DNA of 48,599 bases from a virus. A program made the position numbers and the translations under genes. Positions 27,921 through 46,811 of the stretch are shown piece after piece. The notes below the pieces were generated by a model. That model was not told the origin of the DNA. It searched no databases and saw only the letters and a program-made list of their open reading frames with translations. Each line of letters starts with the position of its first letter. The stretch's first letter is position 1. The stretch spans positions 1-48,599 of IMG/VR virus record IMGVR_UViG_3300042731_008609; one strand, written 5' to 3'.

Positions 27921-27950
27921 TTTATATACCAAAAAGACCCATGGATTAAA
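27921..27950 (-). promoter_or_regulatory. Phage-type bipartite promoter (copy 1)
   Basis: Minus-strand TTTAAT, 14 nt, GGTATATAAA, located at the end of the polymerase gene and 17-20 nt before the ATG at 27904. It shares the exact spacing and core with four other intergenic sites. Confidence 0.75.
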
Positions 27951-30903
27951 TATATATAGATTTTATTCCAAACTCTACATCAATAAATTCAATATAATCT
28001 TCATCTATATCAGCTTTAGCAAGTCCAAATGAATCTGAAAAAATATTAGGCTCCCCCTTAAAAGAAGGAGCAAATGAAAGATAACCTTCACTATCTATAA
28101 TATCAATCTTCATAGACAAAAAAGCATCAGGAGAACAAATATTGGTTAATACTCCACGCTTATCTATCTTAAAAAATGCAACTGTGCCATTTTTGATAAT
28201 GTCTTTTATCTTAGCCCACATATCAGGGAAAACAGTAATACTACCAGTATCATTAAAATATTCAACAGACAAAAAAGCCATAGGATTACCATGTTTAGTT
28301 AATATCTTATGAATATCTATAACTTCACCCATTTGATTAGTATACTTTGACCACCACCATTTTTCAAGTTGACGACATTTTAAATTATATCCTAAAGCCT
28401 CACGCTCCTTATCTAAAGGAACGTCATTTTGAAAAATCCCAGCATAACCTAAATATTCTATTATACGTTTTGAAACTTTTGTTCTTTCTTTAAAATCTTT
28501 AGGACCTCTAAAAAGACCTTCTTCTCTTACCCTAAGAATTTTATTTACTGTCTTTTCACCTACATATTTTATACCATTAAGTCCCATATAAATGGCTTTA
28601 CCATCTTCAAGAACCTTAAAATCTTTACCACTATAATTAATATCAGGATACTCAAGTCGAATTCCTCTTCTCCTACAATCACTTAAAAGTACTCTGCGCC
28701 TATCACCGCTATCAGCCTGATTAAGTATTTCACACATGAAATATTCAGGATAATGAGCCGATAAATAAGCAGTCCACCAAGAAATTAAAGTATAAGCCAC
28801 ACTATGAGCTTTATTCCATGTATAACGTGCAAATTTTTCTAATTTATCCCAAAAACTATAAGCTTCCACTTCGTTCATTTTAGAGTGAACCATACAACCT
28901 TCTATAAATCCTTGCTTGATCTCATCAAAAGTTTCCTTCTCCTTCTTACCTATAGCCTTCCTTAATAAATCAGCCTCAGAAAGACTATATCCAGCAAGTT
29001 GCACAGCCATTTCAAGAATATCTTCTTGATACAAAGGAAGACCATATCTTTTCATATTAAGTTTGGGATGAAGTTGTTCTATAGGTTTACGACCAAACTT
29101 ACGTTCTATATATAACTCAGTAATACCAGACTCAAGACATCCAGGTCTATATAAAGTATTCAAATCCAAAAGCTCATCAAAATTATCTGGATGAAGCTTC
29201 TTTATGATATTCCTATAACCGTCAGATTCCCACTGAAAAATACCAGTAGTTTCACAACTTTGAATAAGCTTAAAAGTCTCATCATCATCAAGAGGAATAT
29301 CATCCACCTTGATATTAACTTGTTTACATATCTTATCGATAACCTCAAGATTTTTGAGACCAAGAATATCAAATTTAATATATTTTAGTTTCTCAAGAGA
29401 GTACATGTCCCATTCAGTAGACCAGATACCTTTATTTACTCCACTTCTAGCAATACGCATCGGAATATTATCATCAGTAAGTACAACACCAGCAGCATGT
29501 ATAGAACATGATCTTTTTGTACCTTCAAGTCTCATACATACATTTATCATTTTTTGATTTTTCTCCTTCTCCACCTGATTACTAAAAGCCTGTGTAGCCA
29601 TAAGTTCTTTAATAGTAGGGACAGGTGCCTCATTCGGAACATAACCACCAAGACCAGTCATAATACCCATAGCTCTTGATACAGAATTAATAACTTCTTT
29701 GGTACTAAGCGTACCATATGATCCTATTTGTGTAACTTTGCCAAAATCTCCTAATTTATTAATAGCCAAATGCCTATCTGTAGGTTGAAAATCCATATCT
29801 ATATCAGGCATAGTAATTCTACCAGGATTTAAAAAACGTTCAAAATAGAGGTTCCACTTTATCGGATCAATCTTTGTAATACCATATAAATAAGCAACAA
29901 GCGATCCTCCAGTAGAACCCCTTCCCCACCCCACGAATTTATCTTGTTCATTAAAATATTTATATAATTCAGCTATGATTTTAAAATACGGTAAAAAACC
30001 ATTATCTTTTAGAATCTTCCACTCCATATCAAACCTTTGTTGATATTCCTTACTTCTTAAATCTAAAGTAAAAAGACGATCAGAAAGACTTAAATACTCC
30101 AAAGATTCATTAATCTCTATATTAGGCAACTTCCAATCATCATATCCAATACTAAATTCTTCTACGAGATTAGCTACTTCATCAGTCCTATCTATAACCT
30201 CTTTGGGAAGATTAAATTTGTCCCTTACAAAATAACCACTTCCAGAAAATTTCATAGCTTTATCGACAGTTTTCCGAGTCTGTATTGCCAAAAGTACTTC
30301 ATGTGCAAATTTATCGTCTTTATCTAAATAATGTATATCATTAGTAGCGATACAAACCTTAGGATCAATTTTTAAAAATACTTCATTTACTTGATATTGT
30401 TCTTTAATCTTGTTATCCTGAAGTTCCAAATAGAAAGCATCAAAACATTCTCGAACAAAGGTATACCACTTAAAATCAAAGCCATTACCTGCCAAAATCT
30501 CTGTAGCCAAATGACCACTTATGCACGCACTGAGACCAATCAAACCTTTCCCATAAGCTCTAAGATCATCATCCAAGATACGTGGTTTCTTATAAAAATT
30601 ATCATGTGCTATATTATTTAAATGTACAAGATTATCAAAACCCTCTCGATTTCTAGCTAAAAGTATTATATGATGATTTACCTTATCAGTCTTTTTATGG
30701 GCATGATAAAATTCACATCCCAGAATAGGCTTTATATCATTCTTTTTACATTCCATATAAAAATCAACTATTCCACCTAAAGTTCCGTGATCAGTAATAG
30801 CTACAGCCTTATGTCCTTGAGATTTAACCTTTTCAATAAGTTCCGGAATCTTGACTATAGCATCAAGAATGGAATAATCAGTATGTAAATGAAGATGAGT
30901 CAT
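27946..30903 (-). CDS. dnaE: DNA polymerase III alpha-type (C family) polymerase
   Basis: A 985-residue replicative polymerase. The PHP domain is at the N-terminus with HLHLH (His3, 5, 7), TDHG (37-40) and NDIHY (188-192). The palm has GRGSTGGSLVAY (327-338) and the catalytic PDIDMDF (366-372, Asp367 and Asp369), with the third acid in KFDILGLKNL. The finger region contains NKAHSVAYTLISWWTAYL (in two parts), typical of DnaE. It is shorter than bacterial DnaE (about 1160) and lacks a clear C-terminal clamp-binding tail. It would replicate the phage genome with the primase-helicase encoded upstream. Confidence 0.92.
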   Translation of the reverse strand: MTHLHLHTDYSILDAIVKIPELIEKVKSQGHKAVAITDHGTLGGIVDFYMECKKNDIKPILGCEFYHAHKKTDKVNHHIILLARNREGFDNLVHLNNIAHDNFYKKPRILDDDLRAYGKGLIGLSACISGHLATEILAGNGFDFKWYTFVRECFDAFYLELQDNKIKEQYQVNEVFLKIDPKVCIATNDIHYLDKDDKFAHEVLLAIQTRKTVDKAMKFSGSGYFVRDKFNLPKEVIDRTDEVANLVEEFSIGYDDWKLPNIEINESLEYLSLSDRLFTLDLRSKEYQQRFDMEWKILKDNGFLPYFKIIAELYKYFNEQDKFVGWGRGSTGGSLVAYLYGITKIDPIKWNLYFERFLNPGRITMPDIDMDFQPTDRHLAINKLGDFGKVTQIGSYGTLSTKEVINSVSRAMGIMTGLGGYVPNEAPVPTIKELMATQAFSNQVEKEKNQKMINVCMRLEGTKRSCSIHAAGVVLTDDNIPMRIARSGVNKGIWSTEWDMYSLEKLKYIKFDILGLKNLEVIDKICKQVNIKVDDIPLDDDETFKLIQSCETTGIFQWESDGYRNIIKKLHPDNFDELLDLNTLYRPGCLESGITELYIERKFGRKPIEQLHPKLNMKRYGLPLYQEDILEMAVQLAGYSLSEADLLRKAIGKKEKETFDEIKQGFIEGCMVHSKMNEVEAYSFWDKLEKFARYTWNKAHSVAYTLISWWTAYLSAHYPEYFMCEILNQADSGDRRRVLLSDCRRRGIRLEYPDINYSGKDFKVLEDGKAIYMGLNGIKYVGEKTVNKILRVREEGLFRGPKDFKERTKVSKRIIEYLGYAGIFQNDVPLDKEREALGYNLKCRQLEKWWWSKYTNQMGEVIDIHKILTKHGNPMAFLSVEYFNDTGSITVFPDMWAKIKDIIKNGTVAFFKIDKRGVLTNICSPDAFLSMKIDIIDSEGYLSFAPSFKGEPNIFSDSFGLAKADIDEDYIEFIDVEFGIKSIYI

Positions 30904-30974
30904 CCTATCTCCACCTTCTCAAATTCCGACTATCTATATTGACCACAACCAGGACATTTCCAATAATAATATAT

Positions 30975-31460
30975 TTATTTTCCTGTACTCCCAAAACCCT
31001 TATCTCCTCTCTCAGACTTAGAAAGTTTTCCCAAAATAAATTTACATGGGAGTAATAAATGAGGTACTATTTGACAGATCCGAGAACCAAAACTTATTAC
31101 AACATCAAAATCATTAGAATTATGGACTATTGCGAAAAGTTCTCCACGATAACCCTTATCTATAACAGCATCCTGTACCTCTAAACCTAAGTTCTTGAAT
31201 GTAGAACTTCTCGCCTTTATTTCAAACCAAATACTTGCTTTAGGATCAATATAAATACCAGTAGAAACATCCTTTACACTTCTACTAGGTATAACAGTCT
31301 GCTCATTAACATATAAATCATAACCAGCATCTCCTTTATACGAAATCTTTTTATTAAAAAGAGTAACAGGAGTAAATACTATACCAGTATAGTCATAATA
31401 TACTATTCTATTATAGCCTAATGCCCATTCACAAACTTTGCCCAATAATCTTCTAAACAT
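30975..31460 (-). CDS. dut: dUTPase
   Basis: All five trimeric dUTPase motifs are visible in 161 residues: DAGYDLYV (44-51), ARSSTF (83-88), DAVIDKGYRGEL (97-108), GSRICQIV (125-132) and RGDKGFGSTG (151-160). The enzyme hydrolyses dUTP to dUMP, keeping uracil out of DNA and supplying dUMP. The first about 14 codons overlap the kinase gene. A short frame just after the stop contains a zinc-knuckle-like CPGCG, noted separately. Confidence 0.92.
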   Translation of the reverse strand: MFRRLLGKVCEWALGYNRIVYYDYTGIVFTPVTLFNKKISYKGDAGYDLYVNEQTVIPSRSVKDVSTGIYIDPKASIWFEIKARSSTFKNLGLEVQDAVIDKGYRGELFAIVHNSNDFDVVISFGSRICQIVPHLLLPCKFILGKLSKSERGDKGFGSTGK

Positions 31461-31975
31461 TTAAGTACCTCTTGTTTATTATCATATATGGGATTACTAC
31501 CACAAATATCATAAATATTATCTAACATATAATTTATATCAATACGTAATCGTATACTACTATATTTTCTAGCGATTATAATCTCCCGCTCATCTCCTGT
31601 ACGCCTACGAGATTTCATCCTCTCTTCCATCATCCAAGGATTAATAGTTATATAAAAAATATGTATAACTTCTGCAGGAACGAGATTTTTCAAAAGAGAA
31701 AGTTGTAAAGTACTACGTGGAAAACCATCTAATATTACATGACTAAAACCCAAAGAAGAATCTTTAACTAAAGAAGAAACTTTCTCATTTATAGCATCAT
31801 TTAAAGATAAGGATAAATCATAAGTCTTTATACTATCTTCGTTTTTATCCATACCAAGACTTCTAGCATATTCTCCGCTAGAAAAATATTTACTATCCCT
31901 AAAATGTTTGACTATTTCTTTAGCTAAAGTAGTCTTCCCACTCAAAGGATCACCAACAAAACAGATTATTATCAT
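31418..31975 (-). CDS. Adenylate kinase-like nucleoside monophosphate kinase
   Basis: The 185-residue protein has an NMP-kinase P-loop GDPLSGKTT (8-16), the NMP-binding signature LDGFPRS (82-88) and a short lid RRRTGDERE (about 123-131) followed by KYSSIRLRID. The small lid is like UMP/CMP and archaeal adenylate kinases. In this genome it could phosphorylate dNMPs, including the dZMP expected from the PurZ pathway, but specificity cannot be read from the sequence. Confidence 0.82.
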   Translation of the reverse strand: MIIICFVGDPLSGKTTLAKEIVKHFRDSKYFSSGEYARSLGMDKNEDSIKTYDLSLSLNDAINEKVSSLVKDSSLGFSHVILDGFPRSTLQLSLLKNLVPAEVIHIFYITINPWMMEERMKSRRRTGDEREIIIARKYSSIRLRIDINYMLDNIYDICGSNPIYDNKQEVLKCLEDYWAKFVNGH

Positions 31976-32241
31976 GTCTTAATCATCCAAGTATAACCTT
32001 TTCTCTTAAGGAAATCCACAGCACCCCAAGAACCATTCCCCAAGCCATATTTAGGGATAAATAATGACTTAACAGCTTTACCAGCATAGAATGTCAAAAA
32101 CTTTACTCCGGCATCTGCCAATCTCTTTAAAGCCGTAAGTTCTGTCCACTTTCCCCCACATTTTTGTATAGATACCCTTTTAGTCTGCTTTAATACTTGA
32201 CCGCCTGCAGGATGAGGATATTTTATCTTTTCAACATTCAT
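31972..32241 (-). CDS. Hypothetical basic protein
   Basis: An 89-residue basic product with GGKWTELTALKRLADAGVKF (about 29-48) and a C-terminal WGAVDFLKRKGYTWMIKT. It is the first gene after a phage-type promoter, with GGAGG before its ATG, and overlaps the kinase gene by 4 nt. Function unknown. Confidence 0.55.
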   Translation of the reverse strand: MNVEKIKYPHPAGGQVLKQTKRVSIQKCGGKWTELTALKRLADAGVKFLTFYAGKAVKSLFIPKYGLGNGSWGAVDFLKRKGYTWMIKT

Positions 32242-32258
32242 CTCGCACCTCCAACCCT

Positions 32259-32288
32259 TTTATATACCGATAAATCCTAAACATTAAG
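32259..32288 (-). promoter_or_regulatory. Phage-type bipartite promoter (copy 2)
   Basis: Minus-strand CTTAAT, 14 nt, GGTATATAAA. The upstream box lies in the final codons of the primase-helicase gene, and the core is about 17 nt before the ATG at 32241. It would start a unit of kinase, dUTPase and polymerase genes. Confidence 0.8.
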
Positions 32289-34574
32289 TTCTCTTATTTT
32301 AAGAACAGCCTTATCAAAAACAGCATCAATCAATATACAATCATGCCCATATCGATGTTTATCTATGTAAAAAAGGAAATTAGAACCTTCTGAAATCTCA
32401 CGTCCAATCTTTTTCTTTACTGTAATAGCAACATCGGCATCAGCTAACATACCATAACTACCAGCTTGATCACTAGCCAAAGGAATATCAGACTTTAAAG
32501 CCGCTTTGCTAAGTTGTGAAAGAGCAATCACCGTAACACCCATAGAACATACTCTTTTCTTTAAAACATTACTTATCTCCATAAGTTGTTCCCATCTTTC
32601 TCGTTTATTATTTACAGATATAAGCTGAACATAATCAATAAAAATTACTCTAATATTATATTTCATAATTTGAGAACGTATAATAGAAACAAGCTTATAC
32701 AAATCATATACACGATGTACTATCCTTAAATTATTTTTTAAAAAATCATGGGCTATCTTAGAAATTTCATTATATTCAGACTGTTCAAGAGAACCAACCA
32801 TCAATTTAGTACCAGCTATACCACTTCTAATTACAAGCTGTTTTTCTATTATCTCCTCCGGAGTCATTTCTAAAGTACACCAAAGTACTTTTTGATTTTT
32901 ATCAAATATCAAATCATCTGTTAAATTACAAGCTACAGTAGTCTTACCATGACCAGTACAGCCAGAAAGCAATATAAATTTATCAGGTATATAACCAAGT
33001 AAAACCCTATTTAAGACTGGAAATCTATTACTAAGAGATATACCAATCACTTTAGGATCATTAACTTTCTGGTTTAAATCCATTATTACCCTTTTAGCAA
33101 TAGAAGCAGAATCAAATACATTTACATTATTCTCACTGATCTTGTATAATTTTTCAACTAAATTACCTACTATTTCAGCAGGATCATCATATTCCTCATT
33201 CTTAACTTTATCTAAAAGATCATATAACTTTTCTCTACTTCTTATATCCTTAACCTTATTTATATAATACTTATAATTTATCAAATCTACATCAAAATCA
33301 CGTTTAAATACATCCTTAACTAAAGTATATGTAACATTCTCCTGATCACGTATAAAAATAAAAAGATTCTTATATACATTAATATGAAAACAATCTTCAG
33401 ATAAAACTTTGTAAGTCTCTGATCTTATAGAATCTGAATGTAAACAATTTCCAAGTACTATTTCTTCAGCATGAAAATCAGGTTGTATATCAATATATAA
33501 ATATGATAAAGCCTCATCTCCATACTTTTCACGAAACCACGGTATCATAACTTCTTTTTCATAACGTGGCATACGTACAAAAAAAGTAGATATGTCTTTA
33601 TACATATTTATCTTTTCAGATAAAGAATAAACACCATTCCATTTCCAGTTAACATACCACTCTAAAGGAACTTGTTCCGGAGGAAGCTTTTTATCAGATA
33701 AAAAACACTCATCAGGATCACCAAACTTAAGATGTATATAAGAAACATAAAAATCACGTGGGAAACCACTTTTAAGTAAACGATTTAAAAAATCATAACC
33801 TGCATTATCACCATCAGGCATAAAAATTACTTTCTTTATATTACGTTCTCTAAGTTCCTGCCAAAACTCAGAGTGCATAGTAGTACCAGACATAGCCACA
33901 CAAGAATAACCTTTCTCATAACCTACAAGTACATCATGATAACCTTCTACTACATAGACTATATCCTCTTTAAGAAAAGAAAGCCCCCATAGAGAATTTC
34001 TCCAAGTCTTACCTGTTTGAGTCATATAATCTTTAGAATCTATCTTCCGACCATGAAATTTAAAAACACCATCTATATCTTCAAAAGGGAAGATGACACT
34101 ATTTGACATATCCCAAAGTCCAAGCTCTTTTAAATCAGAACCTCCGATCCCAAACATAGTACATAAATCCTGAAAGTCATTGCAGTATCCTAACCTAAAA
34201 ACTTCTGCAGTCTCTTTTGAAACATGTCTATCATTAAGATAATCTTTAAATTTATCCGATTTTTTAGCTTCCTCCTGCAGATAAAGCAATATGTCATCAA
34301 GTACATTAGGAGATTTATCAACCACCTTCCCATTTAATTTATCCCATTTTCTCCTTGCCTCTTTAGTAGAAATATGATCATGAAATGCAATAAACTTGAT
34401 AGCCCCACCGCCACGTTTACAACCAAAACAATACCATACATATCCTTTTTCAGTAGGGCTTATAGAAAAAGAAGGATCAGTATCTCCTTCATGAAAAGGA
34501 CATTTCATCCAATACTCTATTCCTCTTTTTTCAAGAGAATATCCATAATCTTCAATCAGGGAAAGTAAAGTCAC
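32277..34574 (-). CDS. Fused DNA primase-helicase
   Basis: A 765-residue T7 gp4-type fusion. The N-terminus has a CHC2/CHCC zinc finger (Cys25, His28, Cys49, Cys52). A Toprim primase follows with VVEGYHDVL (about 211-219) and MPDGDNAG (about 251-258). The C-terminal RecA-like DnaB helicase has Walker A SGCTGHGKTT (about 537-546), a B motif VIFIDYVQLI and the downstream ALSQLSK. It would unwind DNA and prime lagging strands for the DnaE-like polymerase. The linker of about 200 residues is longer than in T7. Confidence 0.9.
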   Translation of the reverse strand: MTLLSLIEDYGYSLEKRGIEYWMKCPFHEGDTDPSFSISPTEKGYVWYCFGCKRGGGAIKFIAFHDHISTKEARRKWDKLNGKVVDKSPNVLDDILLYLQEEAKKSDKFKDYLNDRHVSKETAEVFRLGYCNDFQDLCTMFGIGGSDLKELGLWDMSNSVIFPFEDIDGVFKFHGRKIDSKDYMTQTGKTWRNSLWGLSFLKEDIVYVVEGYHDVLVGYEKGYSCVAMSGTTMHSEFWQELRERNIKKVIFMPDGDNAGYDFLNRLLKSGFPRDFYVSYIHLKFGDPDECFLSDKKLPPEQVPLEWYVNWKWNGVYSLSEKINMYKDISTFFVRMPRYEKEVMIPWFREKYGDEALSYLYIDIQPDFHAEEIVLGNCLHSDSIRSETYKVLSEDCFHINVYKNLFIFIRDQENVTYTLVKDVFKRDFDVDLINYKYYINKVKDIRSREKLYDLLDKVKNEEYDDPAEIVGNLVEKLYKISENNVNVFDSASIAKRVIMDLNQKVNDPKVIGISLSNRFPVLNRVLLGYIPDKFILLSGCTGHGKTTVACNLTDDLIFDKNQKVLWCTLEMTPEEIIEKQLVIRSGIAGTKLMVGSLEQSEYNEISKIAHDFLKNNLRIVHRVYDLYKLVSIIRSQIMKYNIRVIFIDYVQLISVNNKRERWEQLMEISNVLKKRVCSMGVTVIALSQLSKAALKSDIPLASDQAGSYGMLADADVAITVKKKIGREISEGSNFLFYIDKHRYGHDCILIDAVFDKAVLKIRELNV

Positions 34575-35034
34575 TAGTCCTTACCTCATGCCGCTTAATA
34601 GGTTCAAAATGAATCTTAGAAATATCTATATGAGAGATTATATTCTTCCATACCTTATAAACATATCTTATATTAGGTTTTGACTTGCTAATAGCCTGCT
34701 TTAAACGATCCATACTCTCTGACATCTCAGAAATTAATCTTAAATCAGTAATATGAAAATCATCTTCAACAAATTGTGCAAGATAATCATAAGCCTCCCA
34801 AAACCAATCATCTAAAACAATATTAATAGATTCACCTATAGCAGGGATATAATGATCAAAAAGCGGCATAAACCATTCAAAATCATCATGCTCACCATCC
34901 TTGTCCTTAGCCCATACTACTTGAGTAATCTGTTTAGGACTATGTTTAAGTAGAAGTTTCTCTATTAACCTATACTGATTTTCCGGAAAATCACAAACTT
35001 GTAGTACTTCTCTACACCCTTTTGTGTGATACAT
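34552..35034 (-). CDS. Hypothetical acidic protein
   Basis: A 160-residue product rich in Asp, Glu and aromatic residues (KDKDGEHDDFEWFMPLFDHY, about 44-63; DDWFWEAYDYLAQFVEDDF, about 75-93). Overlaps the primase-helicase gene by 23 nt. The composition could suit a DNA-mimic or replication partner, but nothing specific is recognised. Confidence 0.5.
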   Translation of the reverse strand: MYHTKGCREVLQVCDFPENQYRLIEKLLLKHSPKQITQVVWAKDKDGEHDDFEWFMPLFDHYIPAIGESINIVLDDWFWEAYDYLAQFVEDDFHITDLRLISEMSESMDRLKQAISKSKPNIRYVYKVWKNIISHIDISKIHFEPIKRHEVRTSDFTFPD

Positions 35035-35254
35035 TTTTCCTCTCTTTCATAAGTTGATCGATATAAACATTAATCTCTTCCAAACAACTTTTAGAAAAGA
35101 TAGTATTACCTTCAGGGAAAAAACAATATTGCCTCCAATAATTATACCATTTAATAACTCCCAAAAGACCACCAGTATCCTTTTTATATACTCCTATAGT
35201 ATAAGTCTTCTTACTATCATAAGGCCAAATATCAAATCTAAGCCATTTACTCAT
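35012..35254 (-). CDS. Small conserved phage protein (GVIKWY/YCFFP type)
   Basis: An 80-residue product with GVIKWYNYWRQYCFFPEGNT (32-51) and SCLEEINVYIDQLM. Short proteins with this Lys-Trp-Tyr...Phe-Phe-Pro pattern occur in many phages beside replication genes and have no assigned function. It overlaps both neighbours. Confidence 0.6.
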   Translation of the reverse strand: MSKWLRFDIWPYDSKKTYTIGVYKKDTGGLLGVIKWYNYWRQYCFFPEGNTIFSKSCLEEINVYIDQLMKERKNVSHKRV

Positions 35255-35433
35255 TTTCTAAGCTCTTCCCTAACAATAGACCCCAAAACACGCCAACAAA
35301 CATCAAAACTAGAATCTAGTATAGTCTCTTTAGGTACCTGTTTTGTAATTCTTCTAATAGCACCATTAATTGGACAAACTGTTACAACGACTTCATTACT
35401 ATCATCAGGAGAATAATCAAATTCAATATGCAT
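35251..35433 (-). CDS. Small hypothetical protein
   Basis: A 60-residue strand-helix product (EVVVTVCPINGAIRRITKQV, then VCWRVLGSIVREELRK). It overlaps the next gene by 4 nt and shares one base with the upstream one. No family recognised. Confidence 0.5.
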   Translation of the reverse strand: MHIEFDYSPDDSNEVVVTVCPINGAIRRITKQVPKETILDSSFDVCWRVLGSIVREELRK

Positions 35434-35672
35434 TATTCCTCACCTCTAATGGTTATATATCTGATAGTAGGATTAAGATCAACTACTTTAATTGATATAC
35501 CAAATAAAGAATTAATAGTTATCTCTATATCATTATCATAATCTATATCATCAGACAAAATCTCTTGATATAAATCTTGATAAGTCCTAGAATCCATTTC
35601 TATAGCTTCAATCTCATTACAATTACAGTAACCCTCAAGTTCATTTATCCATTTACGAATAAGTTTTATCAT
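35433..35672 (-). CDS. Small acidic hypothetical protein
   Basis: A 79-residue product with a Cys pair CNCNE (16-20), an acidic DDIDYDNDIE segment and a strand-rich end. It is linked to both neighbours by overlapping start and stop codons. No function recognised. Confidence 0.5.
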   Translation of the reverse strand: MIKLIRKWINELEGYCNCNEIEAIEMDSRTYQDLYQEILSDDIDYDNDIEITINSLFGISIKVVDLNPTIRYITIRGEE

Positions 35673-36013
35673 ATGTCCCCCCTTGCCAAATTTGGCGCAA
35701 GTAAAGTTATTTTACGTGATAAAGATTCATATTGTAGCTTAATTGATTTTAAAGCCTGTTCCAAAATATCTCTTTTATCACGACTATTCGCAGTTCTAAA
35801 CTGATCTTTAACCTCTACAAAAGCCCGAACCTGTCCAATCATAAATGTATAAAGCTCACTTACATAATTATACATAGCAGGATAATAACCCAAAAGATAA
35901 GTAAACTTCTCCTGATCCAAAGAAATATAATCAACATGTACTTCTATAAGTTTAAATACCTCTGATCTAAGTAAATCAGTCTCAATATCTATAATATTCT
36001 CAATCGTTATCAT
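35669..36013 (-). CDS. Helical hypothetical protein next to the HD gene
   Basis: A 114-residue, mostly helical protein. I chose the ATG at 36013, which overlaps the HD protein stop (ATGA), over one 15 bases earlier. Its place beside the DatZ-like gene raised the question of a MazZ-type pyrophosphohydrolase, but the Glu-rich metal motif of MazG proteins is not visible. The end (RDILEQALKSIKLQYESLSR) looks like a coiled coil. Confidence 0.5.
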   Translation of the reverse strand: MITIENIIDIETDLLRSEVFKLIEVHVDYISLDQEKFTYLLGYYPAMYNYVSELYTFMIGQVRAFVEVKDQFRTANSRDKRDILEQALKSIKLQYESLSRKITLLAPNLARGDI

Positions 36014-36555
36014 ACCCCAAACTTCCATGTATGTATAAGATCATCGGTTATTGGCTTCTGAGGAATCGATTGAACTAATTCATAAGCCGCATCAATACAA
36101 ACTTTAGGTGCACTACTATGAACCAATAGATAAAAAGCTTCCTGTTCTATCTCATAAAGACTCATATTACCAGTCCTTCTTTCTTCTTCTAAAAATAATT
36201 TCATTTCAACAATATCCGCTAAGCGTACTATAGATAAAATACTATCATCAAAATTATCTTTATGTATATCTTTAATATTAATCATTTTTCTAGCGGTACG
36301 CTCTATAAACTGAGTATCAAGATAACGCTTAACCAAAAACGGAATATCGCTAGTGACAGATTCTTCAAGATCATGATACAAAGCAGTTTTCATGCATCTA
36401 AAAGCATACATTTCACCATTAAAAACTAAACCTAAATCATAAGCAAGAAGACCCACAAAAAAAGAATGTTCAGCCACATTCTGTTCATGATTTATAGAAT
36501 GAAAATTAAATCTTCTTACCCATCTTAAATTCCTTATCAATCTATGATTTATCAT
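36010..36555 (-). CDS. HD-domain phosphohydrolase, DatZ/YfbR-like
   Basis: A 181-residue HD protein with metal ligands at His30 (NVAEHS), His61-Asp62 (ALYHDLEE) and Asp114 (RLADIVE), and a TSDIP segment (68-72) as in YfbR 5'-nucleotidases. In phages with 2-aminoadenine DNA the homologous DatZ removes the phosphates of dATP so that adenine is excluded. The company of a PurZ-like enzyme makes this role likely here. Substrate preference cannot be read from the sequence alone. It overlaps recA by 14 nt. Confidence 0.8.
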   Translation of the reverse strand: MINHRLIRNLRWVRRFNFHSINHEQNVAEHSFFVGLLAYDLGLVFNGEMYAFRCMKTALYHDLEESVTSDIPFLVKRYLDTQFIERTARKMINIKDIHKDNFDDSILSIVRLADIVEMKLFLEEERRTGNMSLYEIEQEAFYLLVHSSAPKVCIDAAYELVQSIPQKPITDDLIHTWKFGV

Positions 36556-37477
36556 TTAAAATATCCCTCCATCGATCCAAATCTTCATTTATAATCATAG
36601 TAGCCTTAGCACTACCATTACCCAACTTCTCTTCTCCATAATAATAATAACTAGATTTTTTAGTTATCTTACCATGTAAAACAAGCTCATCAAATATCTC
36701 TCTACCTAAATCAATTCCCCTACCAAAGACAAAAGGTATTTGACATATTCTTAAAGGAGGACCTACTTTATTTTTTACTACTTTTATTTTAACAAACTTA
36801 CCATAAACATTATTGCCAATCTTTAAAGCCTCTCCATTACGAACTTCAATACGTTGCGAAGCATAAAATTTTAAAGCTCTTCCTCCTGTAGTAGTCTCAG
36901 GAGAACCAAAAAATACACCTATCTTTGAACGTATCTGATTCATAAAGATCACTACAGCATTGGAATCATGAACAAGTTTAGTTAATTTACGCATACCTTG
37001 GCTCATCATTCTTGCTTGAAGCCCCATGTGTGCCTCTCCCATTTCTCCTTCAATCTCCGCCTTGGGAGTAAGAGCCGCCACAGAATCAATAACTATCAAA
37101 GAAACACCAGAAACAAGTAAATCAAACATTATTTCAAAAGCTTGTTCACCATAATCAGGAGTACCATAAAAAAAATCCACATTCTTCTTACCTTTAAGAC
37201 CAACAGCTTTAGCATACTCTTCATCCAAAGCACACTCAGCATCAATTAAAGCAACTTTAAGTCCCATGCTTTGAGCACTAGCCAAAGCATGGATTCCTAA
37301 AGTAGTCTTACCAGCACCTTCCGGACCGAATATCTCTATAATACGACCAGAAGGATAACCACCTGCTATTAAAGCCCGATTCAAAAGATAAGAACCTGTG
37401 CCTACTACAAAAGAGATTTCTTTTTGTTCAGTACCATATTTATTAAGATAGTTTTCATATATCTCAGTAATTTTCAT
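36542..37477 (-). CDS. recA: RecA-type recombinase
   Basis: A 311-residue recombinase with Walker A GPEGAGKTT (51-59), Walker B SLIVIDSVAALTP (about 130-142), loop L1 around EMGEAHMGLQARMMSQ and NQIRSKIGVFFGSPETTTGG (L2 region). It is shorter than bacterial RecA (about 350) at the C-terminus. It drives strand exchange and recombination-dependent replication together with the ssDNA-binding protein encoded upstream. It clearly belongs to the bacterial RecA rather than T4 UvsX subgroup. Confidence 0.92.
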   Translation of the reverse strand: MKITEIYENYLNKYGTEQKEISFVVGTGSYLLNRALIAGGYPSGRIIEIFGPEGAGKTTLGIHALASAQSMGLKVALIDAECALDEEYAKAVGLKGKKNVDFFYGTPDYGEQAFEIMFDLLVSGVSLIVIDSVAALTPKAEIEGEMGEAHMGLQARMMSQGMRKLTKLVHDSNAVVIFMNQIRSKIGVFFGSPETTTGGRALKFYASQRIEVRNGEALKIGNNVYGKFVKIKVVKNKVGPPLRICQIPFVFGRGIDLGREIFDELVLHGKITKKSSYYYYGEEKLGNGSAKATMIINEDLDRWRDILNDKS

Positions 37478-37486
37478 ATTACCTCT

Positions 37487-37573
37487 TTAAAAAACCTGAC
37501 CACAGGGACAGCTTATTCCATCAAGACAAAGATCAGCTAAACCTTGAAACACAATCCGAACGCTTTCACCCAA
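37487..37573 (-). CDS. Tiny Cys-containing frame between ssb and recA
   Basis: A 28-codon frame from TTG at 37573 encodes a peptide ending LCLDGISCPCGQVF, reminiscent of a minimal zinc knuckle. There is no clear ribosome site. It fills the 100-nt gap between the ssDNA-binding protein and recA genes. It may be chance. Confidence 0.25.
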   Translation of the reverse strand: MGESVRIVFQGLADLCLDGISCPCGQVF

Positions 37574-37578
37574 ACAGC

Positions 37579-38490
37579 CTATTCAGCTTGACTCACCAAA
37601 AAAGCTTCAACTTTATCCCTTACCACACCAGAAGCCTTTTCAGTTAAAAACTCCAGATATTTAATTTCTCCCATATCAAAAAGTTCCTGTATAGACTTTC
37701 CTTTATGAGAACCAAAAGGAATAATAAAATCCCCATCCTCATCTAATGATTCATCCGACGATTCTTTAATATCATCAGCAATAAAATCATCTTTTTTGAT
37801 ATCCTCAGGAACAAAATCCGGAATACCCCCCAATCTTTTTGTTAATTCTTCCTGGCTTATAGTAAAATCAAGGTCCTTAGGAAGGATAACCTTTAGTTTT
37901 ATCTCAGACATTTTCTTTTCAGATTCACCAAGATATATTGATTTATATCGAGTATTAAGACCTTTTCCAGACTTCGAAAAATCAAAGTCAATATCAAGCC
38001 CATGTTTTTCAACATACGCCGCTATATCCTCATAAAAATCTTGGTGCTGTCTTACAAAAAGAATTTTTTTGAATCTATACGAATAAACAGGAGCTACATA
38101 ACGTTTTCGTATAGGATAAGGAAGAAGTTTATTCTCAGTAACACCATTATCTTTAGCCTCATTATTCTCCGCACACAATGGGCATGTTTGCATACCACGA
38201 CAAACCATGGTAGAATAAAACCTTTTACCAGTAATACTCGGTATCGAATGCTCCCAAAATCCAACCGGCATAATCCAAGATTCCCATAAAAGTTCTGTGT
38301 TAATAAAATTCTGTGCCTCTTCCTTAGATAACTTCTTAGACTTCATAATAGACTGTATACTAACATCTTTCATAAGAAATCTTACACGTTCCGGATCAGA
38401 CTTAAAAAGAAAAGTAGGTACTTTCCCTTCCATAATCCAATCTTTTTGAATTCCTGTTTTACTACTCTGTCCATCAAAATTCCATGCCAT
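37579..38490 (-). CDS. ssDNA-binding protein (gp32-like) with ExoX-like C-terminal domain
   Basis: The 303-residue protein has the gp32-type opening (VRFLMKDVS, 37-45) and a zinc site with Cys97, Cys103 and Cys106 (CRGMQTCPLC) probably with His81. An acidic linker (about 230-254) precedes PFGSHKGKSIQELFDMGEIK (258-277), matching the small ExoX-type C-terminal domain. Classic gp32 ends in the acidic tail, so the added domain is unusual. AGGAGG precedes the ATG. It works with RecA and the replisome. Confidence 0.75.
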   Translation of the reverse strand: MAWNFDGQSSKTGIQKDWIMEGKVPTFLFKSDPERVRFLMKDVSIQSIMKSKKLSKEEAQNFINTELLWESWIMPVGFWEHSIPSITGKRFYSTMVCRGMQTCPLCAENNEAKDNGVTENKLLPYPIRKRYVAPVYSYRFKKILFVRQHQDFYEDIAAYVEKHGLDIDFDFSKSGKGLNTRYKSIYLGESEKKMSEIKLKVILPKDLDFTISQEELTKRLGGIPDFVPEDIKKDDFIADDIKESSDESLDEDGDFIIPFGSHKGKSIQELFDMGEIKYLEFLTEKASGVVRDKVEAFLVSQAE

Positions 38491-38500
38491 ATTATTCCTC

Positions 38501-39547
38501 CTATATAGCTTTGCCTGCTGTAATCCATGCTTGTGAGTTCTGACCAGTACTTATAAGGTCTATCCTCCTGTTTATCTGACATTCAAGCATATTAACCCAT
38601 TTCTTTGATTTATCTGAAAGTTTATCCCATATAGTATTATCTCTATCTTTAAAATTAATATAATCTAAAAAAGTACATACTAAATATGAAGGATTATTAA
38701 TTCTTAAAGAACAAAGTAAATCTTCTATACTAAGACAAAATATACGTCTTTCCCTATTAGTAACAGTAGTAACCTCAGGCTTTATAAAAGGATTACCTGA
38801 ATAATCAGAAACTTCCTTCCAAGTAAGTTGTCTCCCTCCAGTAGGACCAGAATTTCCCCCTACTCGTATAGGCATAGTTCTAAAAACACCAAAAATATCT
38901 CTGACATCACGTGGACTTATACCGGCTTCGCCTAAAATCGCACTAGCAGAACATTCCCTACTTGTACAAAAAGGATAATATGGTGTAGTATGAACACCTA
39001 ACAAAGTACCCTGACATCCTTCAAGAAGGACAGTAGAATCCTCCATAAGTTCTAAAGTATCACATACATTCAACTTATGGTCTAAAGCCCAACTATCATT
39101 TTTAACCTGTGTCGGCCTACCTCTACGCCAAAGTTTCCTTATTAAGCTTGAACCTGCTCCCTCTGAAGTAGAACCCATCTTTTGAGTAAGTTTATAATCC
39201 ATCTCTCGACGTTTATCATCAGATATTACATAAGTAGCCCGATAATCTATAAACAAACGATCTTTAATAGAAATACCAAATTTTTCTAACATATCTATCT
39301 CTTCAAGTAGAAGCGGCTTCTCTATAAAACAACCAGCACCTAGTACCAATTTAACATCTGGATTGACCCACGCACAAGGAATTGTGCGCATTTTAAAAGA
39401 CTTACCACGATAAATAACAGTATGTCCAGCTTGAATTGATTGAACACGTACCGAAAAGTCATACTTTCTTTTAATTGCTAAATGTTGACAAAGCTTACCC
39501 TTAGCAGTACTACCAAATTGTAAATCAACAACAACATCTACTTCCAA
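38501..39547 (-). CDS. purZ: PurZ-like 2-aminoadenylosuccinate synthetase
   Basis: A 348-residue member of the adenylosuccinate synthetase superfamily, much shorter than PurA (about 430). The P-loop reads LQFGSTAKGK with Ser13 where PurA has the catalytic Asp of GDEGKGK; that replacement is a hallmark of PurZ. AGHT (40-43), LLEGCQGTLLGVHTTPYYPF and EVTTVTNRERRI complete the family pattern. PurZ joins dGMP and aspartate on the way to 2-amino-dAMP. Start TTG at 39547 is supported by GGAGG 6 nt upstream; no ATG is available nearby. It lies behind a structured leader and terminator. Confidence 0.87.
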   Translation of the reverse strand: MEVDVVVDLQFGSTAKGKLCQHLAIKRKYDFSVRVQSIQAGHTVIYRGKSFKMRTIPCAWVNPDVKLVLGAGCFIEKPLLLEEIDMLEKFGISIKDRLFIDYRATYVISDDKRREMDYKLTQKMGSTSEGAGSSLIRKLWRRGRPTQVKNDSWALDHKLNVCDTLELMEDSTVLLEGCQGTLLGVHTTPYYPFCTSRECSASAILGEAGISPRDVRDIFGVFRTMPIRVGGNSGPTGGRQLTWKEVSDYSGNPFIKPEVTTVTNRERRIFCLSIEDLLCSLRINNPSYLVCTFLDYINFKDRDNTIWDKLSDKSKKWVNMLECQINRRIDLISTGQNSQAWITAGKAI

Positions 39548-39560
39548 TTTAATCCTCCCA

Positions 39561-39603
39561 ATAAAAAGGGAAGAGATCCGACGACCAAATCAAATCTCTT
39601 CCC
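39561..39603 (-). terminator. Intrinsic terminator/attenuator before purZ
   Basis: GGGAAGAGAT, a 16-nt loop and ATCTCTTCCC form a perfect 10-bp hairpin followed by TTTTTATT. It lies about 14 nt before the purZ start region and would stop transcripts coming from upstream unless bypassed. Confidence 0.85.
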
Positions 39604-39888
39604 TAAGTTGCTGTTTAGATTGGATGGTGTTTATCCAATCAAGGCCAGGCGCCAATTTTGCGCAACCCTCCCGGTTACTGTTTGAGAAGTAGAAAACCCA
39701 CACTTCCCCCAAAGACACGTAACTTTCCTTTTATCCTTAACTTCCTCTTGACAGAAATTAAGGAAAAGTCTGACCAAAGTTCATCTAAACCAGACCCATA
39801 AATAGTTGGACAATCCTATTTGGTCTTAGATTATCCCCAAGACTGGCGGCAAGTTTCAACCTTACAATCTCCCAAACCAATCGCTATA
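39561..39888 (-). ncRNA. Structured leader or noncoding RNA upstream of purZ
   Basis: No gene lies in these about 330 bases. On the minus strand I can draw five hairpins in order. 39831-39783 pairs ATCTAA/TTAGAT, GACC/GGTC and AAATAG/CTATTT. 39781-39721 pairs AACTTT/AAAGTT and CTTTTCCTTAA with a bulged partner. A smaller GAAGT/ACTTC hairpin follows, then GATTGGAT/ATCCAATC (39640-39618), then the terminator. GTCTT (39843-39839) can instead pair with AAGAC inside the first hairpin, giving two exclusive folds. This fits a cis-acting switch or a stand-alone RNA. Known purine riboswitch elements were not found. Confidence 0.65.
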
Positions 39889-39893
39889 CCTTT

Positions 39894-39923
39894 TTTATAT
39901 ACCCTTAAAACCTTTCGATTAAG
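39894..39923 (-). promoter_or_regulatory. Phage-type bipartite promoter (copy 3), leads the purZ leader
   Basis: Minus-strand CTTAAT, 14 nt, GGTATATAAA, with the upstream box in the final codons of the 39905-40312 gene. Transcription would enter the structured leader and then purZ. Confidence 0.8.
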
Positions 39924-40312
39924 TTACAAAATTTAGAAACTAAGAAAGAATCCGGCCAGTTAATATAATTGTATAAATCTTTCACTTCAATACCAGTAAT
40001 ATTTTCTTTAATCTTTCTATATATCCAATTATATTTAATAGGTAAATCTGTTCGCTTCTCTATCTCCAACAAGAAGACTACACAGATAAGAGCCAATTTA
40101 TCAGGATCATGAATCGCCATATCTATATAATCTGAATACTTATTATTGAACCAAAAAACAGGTTTATTAAACCTATCTGCAAGATGATTATAACACATCT
40201 TAAGACTGTTAAAGACATGTTTTGTATCCATCTCATCTAAAGTAAGTACTTCTCCCTGCATAGTTTTCCATCTAAAAGACTTCTTGATTTTGTTTAATTT
40301 CTTTATAGTCAT
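39905..40312 (-). CDS. Hypothetical protein beside the sigma-like gene
   Basis: A 135-residue product. I chose the ATG at 40312 because it overlaps the preceding stop (ATGA). The sequence is helical with a basic N-terminus (MTIKKLNKIKKSFRWKTM) and several Trp and Tyr. Its co-translation with the sigma-like gene suggests a partner or anti-sigma role, which is speculation from position only. Confidence 0.5.
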   Translation of the reverse strand: MTIKKLNKIKKSFRWKTMQGEVLTLDEMDTKHVFNSLKMCYNHLADRFNKPVFWFNNKYSDYIDMAIHDPDKLALICVVFLLEIEKRTDLPIKYNWIYRKIKENITGIEVKDLYNYINWPDSFLVSKFCNLIERF

Positions 40313-40878
40313 TTGTACCACTCCTTAAATTTTTTTCTAATCTTATTTTTAATTTGTGCCACACGTGGCGCAGAAATATTAAGTTCTATAGCTATAGTTT
40401 TTAGATGATTCTGTTCATAAAGATCAGCACGCTCCAAGAGCCATCTTTTTGCTACATAAAATTCAGTATTCTCTAAAATACCTACAAATTGTTCTATCAT
40501 AACCTTATCTATTATAGCATCATCCTCGTGAACAGAATCTACAAATTCTACAAACCTATTAATAATAATAAGCTCAGTATTACATCTAGGACAAAAAAAC
40601 TTCCTAAAACTAACATATCTACCGCACGAATTACAATACTTAACAAGACTCTTACGATAATTAACTAAAATATAATTCTTTATTTCTTGATTTCCACCAT
40701 TCGTAAGATATTTAATTGGGTCTTTCTCCCAATCAACAGTTTTTATCGATTTATAAACCCCCAACCAGAAAACTTGCGTTAATTCCTCATCCTTCCAAAA
40801 TCTTCTATTAGGTATTCTATCATGTATACTCTGCATAAATGCTTTAGGATTATTTCTGCATAGATTTTTGATGCTCAT
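40309..40878 (-). CDS. Sigma-factor-like protein with inserted zinc ribbon
   Basis: The 189-residue protein has a sigma region 2-like N-terminal part (EELTQVFWLGVYKSIKTVDW, about 31-50, then NQEIKNYILVNYRKS) and a C-terminal region 4-like helix-turn-helix (HLKTIAIELNISAPRVAQIK, 158-177). Between them is a zinc ribbon (Cys82, Cys85, Cys96, Cys99). This is the size of an ECF-type or phage late sigma factor. It may read the five bipartite promoters found in the window. Other phage HTH regulators cannot be excluded. Confidence 0.7.
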   Translation of the reverse strand: MSIKNLCRNNPKAFMQSIHDRIPNRRFWKDEELTQVFWLGVYKSIKTVDWEKDPIKYLTNGGNQEIKNYILVNYRKSLVKYCNSCGRYVSFRKFFCPRCNTELIIINRFVEFVDSVHEDDAIIDKVMIEQFVGILENTEFYVAKRWLLERADLYEQNHLKTIAIELNISAPRVAQIKNKIRKKFKEWYK

Positions 40879-41218: not shown

Positions 41219-41297
41219 ATGGTCCCCTTGCACTATAAGTTGAGCGGAGCGGGAGATTTCCCTCCCGGTCCCGGCTTTCACGGGACTGTCCCTTGCC

Positions 41298-41858
41298 TTA
41301 TTTCTTTATCATTCCTCTTTTAGAGGATGAAACCTTCTTCTTAGCCGAAACGTTCTTTGAAGCCTTTTTAGCCGGAGTCTTCTTGAGCTTTGCGAGATTC
41401 TCCAACCGATGTGTCTTGCTACATTCCTGACAATATTTCTGGTATGGGGTGAATTTTGAAGTAGTGAAAATCTTGTTGCACTTCTCACACTTCTTTTCAA
41501 TACCAACACCAGATGATTTCCCTCTTCGACATTCCGGACATTTATCGAAATACGGATTAAATTTCGATACCGTAAAATCCTTCCCACACTCGGAACACTT
41601 CTTGTCCAAATTAACTGGCTCTTTCTTCTTTGGCTTAGCCTTCTTCTGTACCTGCTTTTTCTTTGTAACAGCCTTTTTAGGCTTAGCCTGTAAACGTTTC
41701 GTACCAATCACTTCGAAATCCTCACCGTCCAAAGTAACAGTAGTTTTATCGTCAGCGAATTTTGCTTCGTATGAAGTACCTTCATAGGCCCCACGAATGG
41801 GAATTTCTTCATTCGTAATTGCTTTGACGATCTCTTTAGCAAGTTCAACCTTTTCCAT
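41298..41858 (-). CDS. Tandem zinc-ribbon, Lys-rich protein
   Basis: The 186-residue protein has a small beta N-terminal domain (1-55), a Lys/Pro/Ala-rich histone-H1-like linker (58-82) and two near-repeated ribbons: Cys88/91/107/110 and Cys124/127/143/146, both of the form CxxCxKxFTxSKFxPYxxxCxxC. A second Lys/Ala/Ser-rich tail (154-186) follows. It is probably a DNA- or RNA-binding protein. The same ribbon type returns once in the next gene, indicating internal duplication. Confidence 0.65.
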   Translation of the reverse strand: MEKVELAKEIVKAITNEEIPIRGAYEGTSYEAKFADDKTTVTLDGEDFEVIGTKRLQAKPKKAVTKKKQVQKKAKPKKKEPVNLDKKCSECGKDFTVSKFNPYFDKCPECRRGKSSGVGIEKKCEKCNKIFTTSKFTPYQKYCQECSKTHRLENLAKLKKTPAKKASKNVSAKKKVSSSKRGMIKK

Positions 41859-41891: not shown

Positions 41892-41940
41892 TAAAACCTA
41901 CTCCGGAATCGAACCGGAGCTTCCGCCTTAACGAATAGGC
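41892..41940 (-). tRNA. tRNA 3' half or tRNA-like fragment
   Basis: A perfect T-arm, CTCCGG-TTCGATT-CCGGAG, is followed by TAGGTT, and an anticodon-arm-like GCCT/AGGC hairpin precedes it. The D-arm and 5' acceptor strand are missing, because the upstream gene ends inside this region. It could be a remnant, a recombination target matching a host tRNA 3' end, or a tRNA mimic. No integrase gene was seen in the window. Confidence 0.35.
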
Positions 41941-42227
41941 TAAACATGATCTATCATCTCCTTAGATGCTATACAACATTCACAATTAGGATTCTCATTC
42001 TTTGAAAGACAAACTTTACATGTCTCCCAGTCATTATTTGGTCCATACTTCTTCTCAAGTTCCCACCACCGTTCCGTCATTCCTGCGAATTGATCAGCGA
42101 TTTCGTCGTTACCCTGTTCCCGCCAATATTTTTCAGCCTTATCAAACGTTCGGCCAGTTTCACCGTTTTCGAGTTTCCGTGCATAAACGATTAATTCGTC
42201 CTGGTTCATTTCATTGATAGTTTTCAT
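41940..42227 (-). CDS. Hypothetical protein with Cys-rich C-terminus
   Basis: A 95-residue product from ATG 42227, chosen because GGAGG precedes it; the frame also has an ATG 12 bases upstream. A helical N-terminal part (ELIVYARKLENGETGRTF, EKYWREQGNDEIADQFAG) is followed by Cys-x-x-Cys and CECC groups (CKVCLSKNENPNCECC). It belongs to a set of small Cys-rich proteins in this stretch. Confidence 0.5.
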   Translation of the reverse strand: MKTINEMNQDELIVYARKLENGETGRTFDKAEKYWREQGNDEIADQFAGMTERWWELEKKYGPNNDWETCKVCLSKNENPNCECCIASKEMIDHV

Positions 42228-42824: not shown

Positions 42825-42927
42825 TGTATCATTCTGACCCACCTAAAATACCTCTAAAAGGCCAAATTGTATCATCTTGACCCACATGGAAACATTTCCA
42901 TAAACAATATTGGGTCATTCTGATACA
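42825..42927. repeat. Three operator-like 17-bp dyads at 43-bp spacing
   Basis: Three copies of TGTATCA-N3-TGACCCA occur at 42825-42841, 42868-42884 and, in inverted orientation, 42911-42927. Start-to-start spacing is exactly 43 and 43 bp, about four helical turns. Each is an imperfect palindrome (TGNNTCA-N3-TGANNCA). There is no gene here. The array looks like binding sites for a regulator or an initiator protein. Confidence 0.8.
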
Positions 42928-44909: not shown

Positions 44910-46811
44910 TTAAATAAATCTATACTCTAATTCACTTTGATGTCCAGATACTTGGCCTTTCATAGTCTCTATCTGTAGTACCCATTCTTTTGACGCCGAT
45001 ACCCTACAATCATAAATATGTACATATGGACTTGTAGAAGCAAATGATACGGCTAAATATCTACCATCAGGAGAAAAAGACGCATGGGCACCACTACCAG
45101 TAGGTAAAGTAGCAGGATCACTTATCTTTAATATACTCCTACCATTTAATTCATAAATATTTACATAAGGACTAGCACTATGACTAATAGCCATAAAACG
45201 ATTTCCAGGAGAAAAACCACACCCACTACCATTACCAGTAGGCAAAGTAGCAGGATTTGAAGTCTTTACAGGACTACCAGTAGACCAATCATAGATAGTC
45301 ATATAAGGACTCGCACTATGTCCAATTACTAAATACCGACCATCTGAAGACCAACAACAACCATTACAAGCATTAGCAGGCAACGTTCCAGGATCAGAAA
45401 TTTTGATCGGCACTCCAGTAAACCAATCATAAATAGTAATATAATTAGGTACTCCCATCCCTACAGCTAGATATCTACCATCAGGAGACCAACAACAATC
45501 ACTACCAGTACCAGCAGGCAACGTTCCAGGATTTGCTATTTTAACAGGACTACCAGTAGACCAATCATAGATAGTAACATAAGGACTAGTAACATGAGCA
45601 ACTGCCATATAACGTCCATCCAATGACCATTCTACCCCCCTTCCAAGTCCTGTCGGAGTAGTAGCAGGGTCACTTATCTTAACTGGACTACCAGTAGACC
45701 AATCATAAATAGTAACATAAGGACTAGTACTATGACTAACAGCTAGATATCTACCATCAGGAGACCAAGCACACCCACTACCATCACCAGTAGGTAAAGT
45801 AGCAGGATTTGCTATTTTAACAGGAGAGCCAGTAGACCAATCATAAATAGTTACATAAGGACTAGTGCTATGACTGACGGCTAAATATCTACCATCAGGA
45901 GACCACGCAACTTCTGTTCCATTACCAGTAGGCGGAGTAGCAGGATCACTTATCTTAGTTGGGTCCTGTGGTCCCAAACCAGAACCTTGATAAATTAGTT
46001 TTGCATGATCCCCAGGCATAAGACGAAGATAACCCGCTGTACCTTTCGTAGTAAAAAGAGACCTCCTCCAAGAAATAATTTCGTTAGCATTAGATTGTAT
46101 AATCTTTACTTTACCATCTAAAACATCTATCTCAACAAAATCTCCTTCCTGCGCATCTGTTGGAAGTGTAAGATCATGTGAACCATTAACAAGTACCTTA
46201 TGATTCCTACTTAAAGCAACATCATTATTTATCTGAGAAAATGGCGCAAATTTATCTGGAAGATATTGTACTATAGTAAACGTTCCTCCAGGAGAACCAA
46301 CAATAGTACCAAGCACTATGTCATAATCTGTAGGAGAGACAGAACTTACAACAAATGAAAAGCTAGGTACTCTTTCATAAGCATAACTACCTGAAGTTTT
46401 AGCACGATTACGACTGTTTCCGTCAGTTTCTGTATAAGAAAGCTTAATATAGTTCACAGTAGAACCGTTTAAAGTAGCTGAAGATATAGTCATATTTGTT
46501 TGTTGCGTAGAAGCAACACGTACTTTTATAGTCTCCGTTTTCTTTGTAGGAGGAAGAGAGGCAAAAGAATCTGGAACTTCCACATCAAAGTCACAGTAAC
46601 CAACACAAGGAGTTATATCTAAAGTATCCCCTACTCCCTGAGTAACAAGTCCACCAGATACCAAAATAGAAGCTTTTTCAGCGATATCATAAAGAAGTCT
46701 ACCCACAAGGTCTCTCTTGAAATGAAAATCTCTTATAAGGTCTTGCGAATAATATCTATCACCTAGAGCCTCAGGTAAAGTTGTATCATAATCAACATTA
46801 TGATGATTCAT
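44910..46811 (-). CDS. Tail fibre with seven-bladed beta-propeller
   Basis: A 633-residue protein. Residues 1-285 look like a phage fibre/collar module (YDTTLPEALGDRYYSQDLIR, ending LRLMPGDHAKLIYQG). Residues 286-608 are seven repeats of exactly 46 residues, each of the form WSPDGRYLAV..SPYVTIYDW, typical of WD40/TolB-like propeller blades. The C-terminal 25 residues are distinct. It probably binds a host receptor. The gene follows the gpI-like baseplate gene, the usual place for fibres. Confidence 0.8.
   Translation of the reverse strand: MNHHNVDYDTTLPEALGDRYYSQDLIRDFHFKRDLVGRLLYDIAEKASILVSGGLVTQGVGDTLDITPCVGYCDFDVEVPDSFASLPPTKKTETIKVRVASTQQTNMTISSATLNGSTVNYIKLSYTETDGNSRNRAKTSGSYAYERVPSFSFVVSSVSPTDYDIVLGTIVGSPGGTFTIVQYLPDKFAPFSQINNDVALSRNHKVLVNGSHDLTLPTDAQEGDFVEIDVLDGKVKIIQSNANEIISWRRSLFTTKGTAGYLRLMPGDHAKLIYQGSGLGPQDPTKISDPATPPTGNGTEVAWSPDGRYLAVSHSTSPYVTIYDWSTGSPVKIANPATLPTGDGSGCAWSPDGRYLAVSHSTSPYVTIYDWSTGSPVKISDPATTPTGLGRGVEWSLDGRYMAVAHVTSPYVTIYDWSTGSPVKIANPGTLPAGTGSDCCWSPDGRYLAVGMGVPNYITIYDWFTGVPIKISDPGTLPANACNGCCWSSDGRYLVIGHSASPYMTIYDWSTGSPVKTSNPATLPTGNGSGCGFSPGNRFMAISHSASPYVNIYELNGRSILKISDPATLPTGSGAHASFSPDGRYLAVSFASTSPYVHIYDCRVSASKEWVLQIETMKGQVSGHQSELEYRFI
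44991..45956 (-). repeat. Seven tandem 138-bp coding repeats
   Basis: The propeller blades repeat without length change at residues 286, 332, 378, 424, 470, 516 and 562. Neighbouring blades 1-3 are most alike and differ mainly at the tips. High DNA similarity would permit blade exchange by recombination. Confidence 0.85.

Follow-up and report, generated by a model that had tools for sequence, protein, structure and literature searches.

Directly upstream of purZ, the window (the whole stretch of DNA analysed here, 48599 bases long and taken from IMG/VR as a virus record) holds an untranslated stretch that ends in an intrinsic terminator, which raises the question of whether this stretch is a leader that controls purZ, an RNA gene in its own right or a spacer. 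The initial annotation proposed an attenuator, a riboswitch or an independent RNA, and found a purine-sensing role attractive. The sequence anatomy of the element is firm: a promoter-like motif, an untranslated RNA and a terminator before purZ are all supported, so that the 'attenuator or independent RNA' part of this proposal stands, and the element is probably a small non-coding RNA that also acts as a brake on purZ.

Genomic context of purZ

The minus strand holds most genes of the window, and a tail sheath and a baseplate wedge among the structural genes identify the virus as a contractile-tailed phage. The genes and sites on which the analysis is centred are as follows.

38501 to 39547, minus strand: purZ, TTG start, adenylosuccinate synthetase homologue (Pfam PF00709)
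39554 to 39559, minus strand: purZ ribosome-binding site, GGGAGG
36010 to 36555: DatZ-like gene (phrog_7076)
40309 to 40878, minus strand: sigma-factor-like gene with a zinc ribbon (TIGR02937, E 2.9e-6, below the curated cut-off)

The purZ product contains the sequence LQFGSTAKG with the PurZ serine that replaces the catalytic aspartate, and a serine occupies this catalytic position in all phage PurZ sequences examined in a published survey (PMC12884076). The score of the product against the NCBIfam PurZ model, 207.8 bits, is below the curated cut-off of 300, and the name purZ is thus good, not certain. Within 27946-39547, the gene set of PurZ and DatZ-like proteins adjoins a PolIII-alpha-type polymerase in this contractile-tailed phage.

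The terminator and the untranslated RNA

The element itself comprises the following features.

39561 to 39604, minus strand: intrinsic terminator, stem 39604-39567 followed by the U-tract, AGGGAAGAGAT...ATCTCTTCCCT-TTTTATT
39561 to 39888, minus strand: untranslated RNA, ~325 nt, no convincing ORF, GC 0.41, z of the whole element -2.8
39618 to 39640, minus strand: 8-bp hairpin GAUUGGAU/AUCCAAUC, pair probabilities 0.85-0.92
39680 to 39877, minus strand: predicted 5' domain, several hairpins enclosed by the closing helix GUUUGGGAG/CUUCUCAAAC, z -1.42

The intrinsic terminator that had been claimed to lie right before the purZ ribosome site was confirmed, its stem comprising 16 pairs when G-U pairs are counted, of which the outer 11 are perfect. 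It represents the strongest hairpin found within 70 nt upstream of a gene start among the 67 gene starts compared, and 7 nt separate the end of the stem from the ribosome site. The U-tract is short, which counts against attenuation. A second clear intrinsic terminator, GGAGGAG...CTCCTCC-TTTTTT (10465-10446, minus strand), is located between codirectional genes, before the gene starting at 10418.

No convincing gene was found between 39548 and 39904, where the frames are full of stops, in agreement with the gene-free stretch described initially. The possibility of a decayed gene was also rejected, as stops occur in all frames of the element. The GC content of the element is 0.41, compared to 0.35 for the genome.

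The folding signal is confined to one end of the RNA. The 3' 120 nt (39561-39680) fold at -45.2 kcal/mol, compared to -28.6 +/- 3.5 kcal/mol for shuffled sequences (z -4.74), with none of 200 shuffles being as good, and the 120-nt segment at 39521 on the minus strand exhibits the lowest composition-corrected folding energy of the genome, as determined by a genome-wide regression of energy on composition. For the 5' 198 nt the advantage over shuffles is slight, 21 of 200 being as good, while the RNA minus its terminator yields a z of -1.63, and the statistical case for structure therefore rests on the 3' end. When the complementary strand of the entire element was folded, a similar z (-2.78) was obtained, as would be expected if the signal comes from the near-symmetric terminator stem. 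Of the 'at least five good hairpins' that had been reported, the CCUUAAUUUC hairpin, the 8-bp GAUUGGAU hairpin and the terminator are solid; the body of the RNA contains hairpins with pair probabilities of 0.85-1.0, and the closing helix of the 5' domain has a pair probability of about 0.7, but as a set these hairpins do not exceed what is expected by chance.

A recurrent promoter-like motif

The RNA is preceded by a motif that recurs elsewhere in the window.

39888 to 39923, minus strand: promoter-like motif, 36 bp, CTTAATCGAAAGGTTTTAAGGGTATATAAAAAAGGT, with recurrent copies at gene junctions

The sequence GGTATATAAAAA occurs exactly three times in the window, in each case on the minus strand (27919, 39892 and 42755) and in similar surroundings, and a 36-bp matrix built from these three sites was used to scan the window. 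Besides the copy before the RNA, the motif is present as two strong copies (27950-27915 and 42786-42751), and the matrix yields two weaker ones (32288-32253 and 43762-43727), all on the minus strand at gene junctions, with no other sequence scoring near the weaker pair. A single IUPAC pattern recovered no copies or only part of them, the spacing being variable, and it is thus the matrix that identifies the weaker copies. The copy that leads into the RNA shares bases with the 3' end of ORF 39905-40321, for which reason 17 of its bases are non-coding, as against 24-36 at the other four sites.

At three of the five sites an SD sequence and a start codon follow within ~20 nt, making it likely that the motif is a promoter from which a very short leader is transcribed; it might instead be a translational or RNA-processing signal. 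The phage-type promoter that was said to lead into the element is supported as a promoter-like motif that recurs on the minus strand at gene junctions, from which transcription would be predicted to start near 39885-39889. Possibly, the sigma-like protein encoded by 40309-40878 uses the copies of this motif, and the analysis names a candidate phage promoter motif that can be tested.

Consensus sigma-70 promoters were found at 42715-42687, upstream of purZ, and at 14951-14923, and similar promoters are located ~1-1.5 kb upstream of purZ in two related viruses, G002 and G004. A possible further promoter, TTGAAA-18-GATAAT (39859-39830), lies within the RNA and still before the terminator, while the interval from the terminator to the purZ ribosome site, which offers hardly any room for a promoter, yielded none. 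Three operator-like repeats, TGTATCATTCTGACCC and variants in both orientations, are present at 42825-42927, upstream of the sigma-70 promoter at 42715-42687, and in G002 the related sequence GAATGACCCAA is located within the spacer of a sigma-70 promoter.

The purZ junction in related viruses

Single-sequence scans of the viral collection, with PurZ or RecA as the query, returned nothing; alignments of PurZ, PolIII alpha and the capsid protein recover the relatives of this virus. PurZ identity amounts to 57% for G001, 52% for G002, 50% for L196, 48% for G003 and G004, and 40% for G009, and no PurZ match was obtained for G024 and G025, which were found by capsid protein and may be fragments. 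Gene order around purZ is conserved in the relatives, including the sigma-like homologue that precedes purZ.

The interval between these two genes is not conserved. In G002, G004 and L196, purZ directly follows the sigma-like gene with a gap of about 50-110 nt, which leaves no room for such a leader, and the hairpins before purZ are weak and at chance level, which argues against attenuation. G001, the closest relative, has two ORFs and a 65-nt gap at this position, and a strong 12-pair hairpin with a U-rich tail immediately precedes its purZ ribosome site (p 0.0025 compared to random positions). In the present virus, the junction is made up of one ORF and the RNA, the latter having a promoter-like motif and a terminator of its own. 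Judged by these gene arrangements, the junction of the sigma-like gene with purZ is variable.

No homologue of the RNA was detected by blastn, nhmmer, two single-sequence covariance models or a gapped DNA pattern, and two matches to the latter (L277 and L278) were rejected as GC-rich chance matches. The RNA was likewise not seen in the relatives by DNA comparison or, at the tested loci, by covariance model, although a negative result carries little weight at such divergence.

A probable terminated RNA that may attenuate purZ

A discrete terminated RNA at this locus, whether it acts by attenuation or as an independent small RNA, is considered likely. The best single explanation, which is held with evenly balanced confidence, is that a lineage-specific, terminated non-coding transcript occupies the variable junction and that its terminator attenuates purZ in cis. 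The phage-type promoter-like motif at 39.9 kb would drive transcription of the lineage-specific unit between the sigma-like gene and purZ, and polymerases that start at 42.7 kb, at the consensus sigma-70 promoter, would probably read into it as well. Transcription would mostly stop at the terminator (39567), releasing a discrete RNA of about 325 nt. Since no promoter was detected downstream of the terminator, from whose stem 7 nt remain to the ribosome site, purZ and the gene behind it would be reached solely by read-through polymerases, and this dependence would make the terminator, by its position, a point of cis attenuation that lowers the expression of purZ and of what follows. Such attenuation would most simply consist of fixed partial termination and not of a ligand switch. 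It is from the sequence that we infer the transcription start, termination efficiency, read-through and the effect on purZ.

The evidence counted for attenuation includes the terminator, the recurrent motif, the non-coding RNA of raised GC content, the 7-nt gap and the upstream sigma-70 promoters, together with the unrivalled 5' arm of the terminator, the G001 hairpin and the second terminator at 10465-10446. At the sequence level, an intrinsic terminator lies between the promoter-like motif and purZ, and no promoter was found after it. As for an independent non-coding RNA, the terminator and the absence of an ORF are clear, and the promoter is putative, represented by a recurrent motif. The observations on which these readings draw are thus sequence anatomy, motif recurrence, predicted terminator strength and the absence of the leader in relatives, and the terminated RNA before purZ remains a candidate. 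If the transcript is real, it would place a 2-aminoadenine-pathway gene behind a termination point in a contractile-tailed phage lineage.

Alternative explanations

The foremost alternative, regarded as possible if rather unlikely, is an independent small RNA that acts in trans on RNAs or proteins of the host or the phage, its position before purZ being incidental. Such an RNA would represent 'moron'-like non-coding cargo inserted with its own promoter and terminator at a variable site, an equally tentative proposition. It would account for the promoter-like motif and terminator of the element, for the lack of any coupling between a sensor and the terminator, and for the variability of the junction, with no insert in G002, G004 and L196, two other ORFs in G001, and an ORF plus the RNA here; moreover, small RNA genes at moron sites are known in phages (PMC4104026). 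However, since no homologue was found there is no sign of selection on the RNA, and the fold of its 5' part is within chance.

A ligand-sensing riboswitch that switches the terminator, possibly in response to dGTP, dZTP or another purine, is improbable, even though the layout of leader, terminator and purZ and the activity of the purZ product on purine nucleotides would both suit it. The pairing alternative that had been noted concerns one hairpin.

39662 to 39678, minus strand: hairpin GUAACC/GGUUGC, of which GUUGC alternatively pairs with GCAAC at 39611-39607

These mutually exclusive pairings do exist, but the first form dominates in the full RNA (pair probability ~0.78 versus ~0.02), and the terminator is touched by neither. 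When transcripts cut off inside the terminator were folded with an energy model without pseudoknots, no antiterminator was found: the 5' arm of the terminator pairs upstream with a probability of at most about 0.26 per base, and the terminator forms with a probability near 1 in the energy model once its 3' arm is complete. As this arm lacks a strong upstream partner, no classical antiterminator is visible. Rfam returned no match in the element at the gathering score, purine classes included, and up to an E-value of 10 only three sub-threshold, unrelated matches, which bears out the initial statement that known purine riboswitch cores are not matched. Together with the absence of a leader from purZ of the nearest relatives, these results speak against the purine-sensing role. 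Among the papers retrieved on 2-aminoadenine, PurZ and phages, titles and abstracts deal with enzymes, polymerases and genomes, the word 'riboswitch' is absent from PMC12884076, and, among the matches listed for PurZ-prefixed words combined with riboswitch, the titles concern riboswitches or RNA generally.

It is quite improbable that the element is a spacer or a decayed remnant ending in an ordinary terminator, with a leader that has no function. Near-chance folding of the 5' part and the absence of the RNA from every relative found would be explained, but the raised GC content, the recurrent promoter-like motif and the several hairpins of high pair probability would not.

The stem-loops of put RNA bind RNA polymerase, and the element could by analogy be a cis antitermination RNA like that of HK022, the modified polymerase reading through this and later terminators, which is deemed very improbable. 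Consistent with such a role, the put RNAs of HK022 follow early promoters and act by suppressing terminators (PMC9378689), and the RNA described here lies directly behind a promoter-like motif and ahead of a terminator that precedes replication genes; put is, however, ~70 nt long with two stem-loops, and the present element is longer. Also very improbable is a new class of phage RNA that would sense the pool of purine or 2-aminopurine nucleotides and gate purZ and replication genes by conditional termination.

Other RNA-like elements and repeats

Two further RNA-like elements are located within about 2.5 kb upstream of the RNA, and the transcript, if real, would add a non-coding RNA to a locus already rich in RNA elements.

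41231 to 41303, minus strand: twister-sister ribozyme, 48.6 bits (gathering score 34)
41895 to 41949, minus strand: tRNA-like element with acceptor stem, D-loop and T-arm, almost without anticodon arm

The ribozyme immediately precedes the likely start of the gene ending at 40850, and none was found above the cut-off in 16 related virus records. The tRNA-like element scores 19.7 bits against the Rfam tRNA model, below the cut-off of 29, and ARAGORN at standard settings reports no tRNA in the window. Elsewhere, a GC-rich (0.55) stretch of this AT-rich genome (21055-21212, minus strand, within 20871-21244) carries a 7-bp acceptor-like stem, GGGAGTG/CACTCCC, separated by about 150 nt from a T-arm, GTTGGTTCAAATCCAAC, and is recognised by neither ARAGORN nor Rfam. 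Units of 138 bp form a tandem array at 45007-45956, inside the gene 44910-46811.

Comparison with known systems

The element resembles transcription attenuators in having an untranslated leader and an intrinsic terminator directly before the ribosome site, with no promoter found between the two, and differs from them in that no leader peptide, aptamer or antiterminator was recognised. It shares with the purine-class riboswitches of Rfam a downstream gene that acts on purine nucleotides, but it lacks a match at permissive E-values and a helix that competes with the terminator. Like HK022 put, it represents a phage RNA between a promoter, here putative, and a terminator, although put, compared by size and position only, is ~70 nt long with two stem-loops (PMC9378689), as against ~325 nt here. 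Finally, the prophage small RNAs AgvB and AsxR at moron sites (PMC4104026) are similarly non-coding RNA genes at a variable phage insertion site, while those anti-sRNAs measure 51-60 nt and belong to E. coli lambdoid prophages, the likeness being one of arrangement, with no homology claimed.
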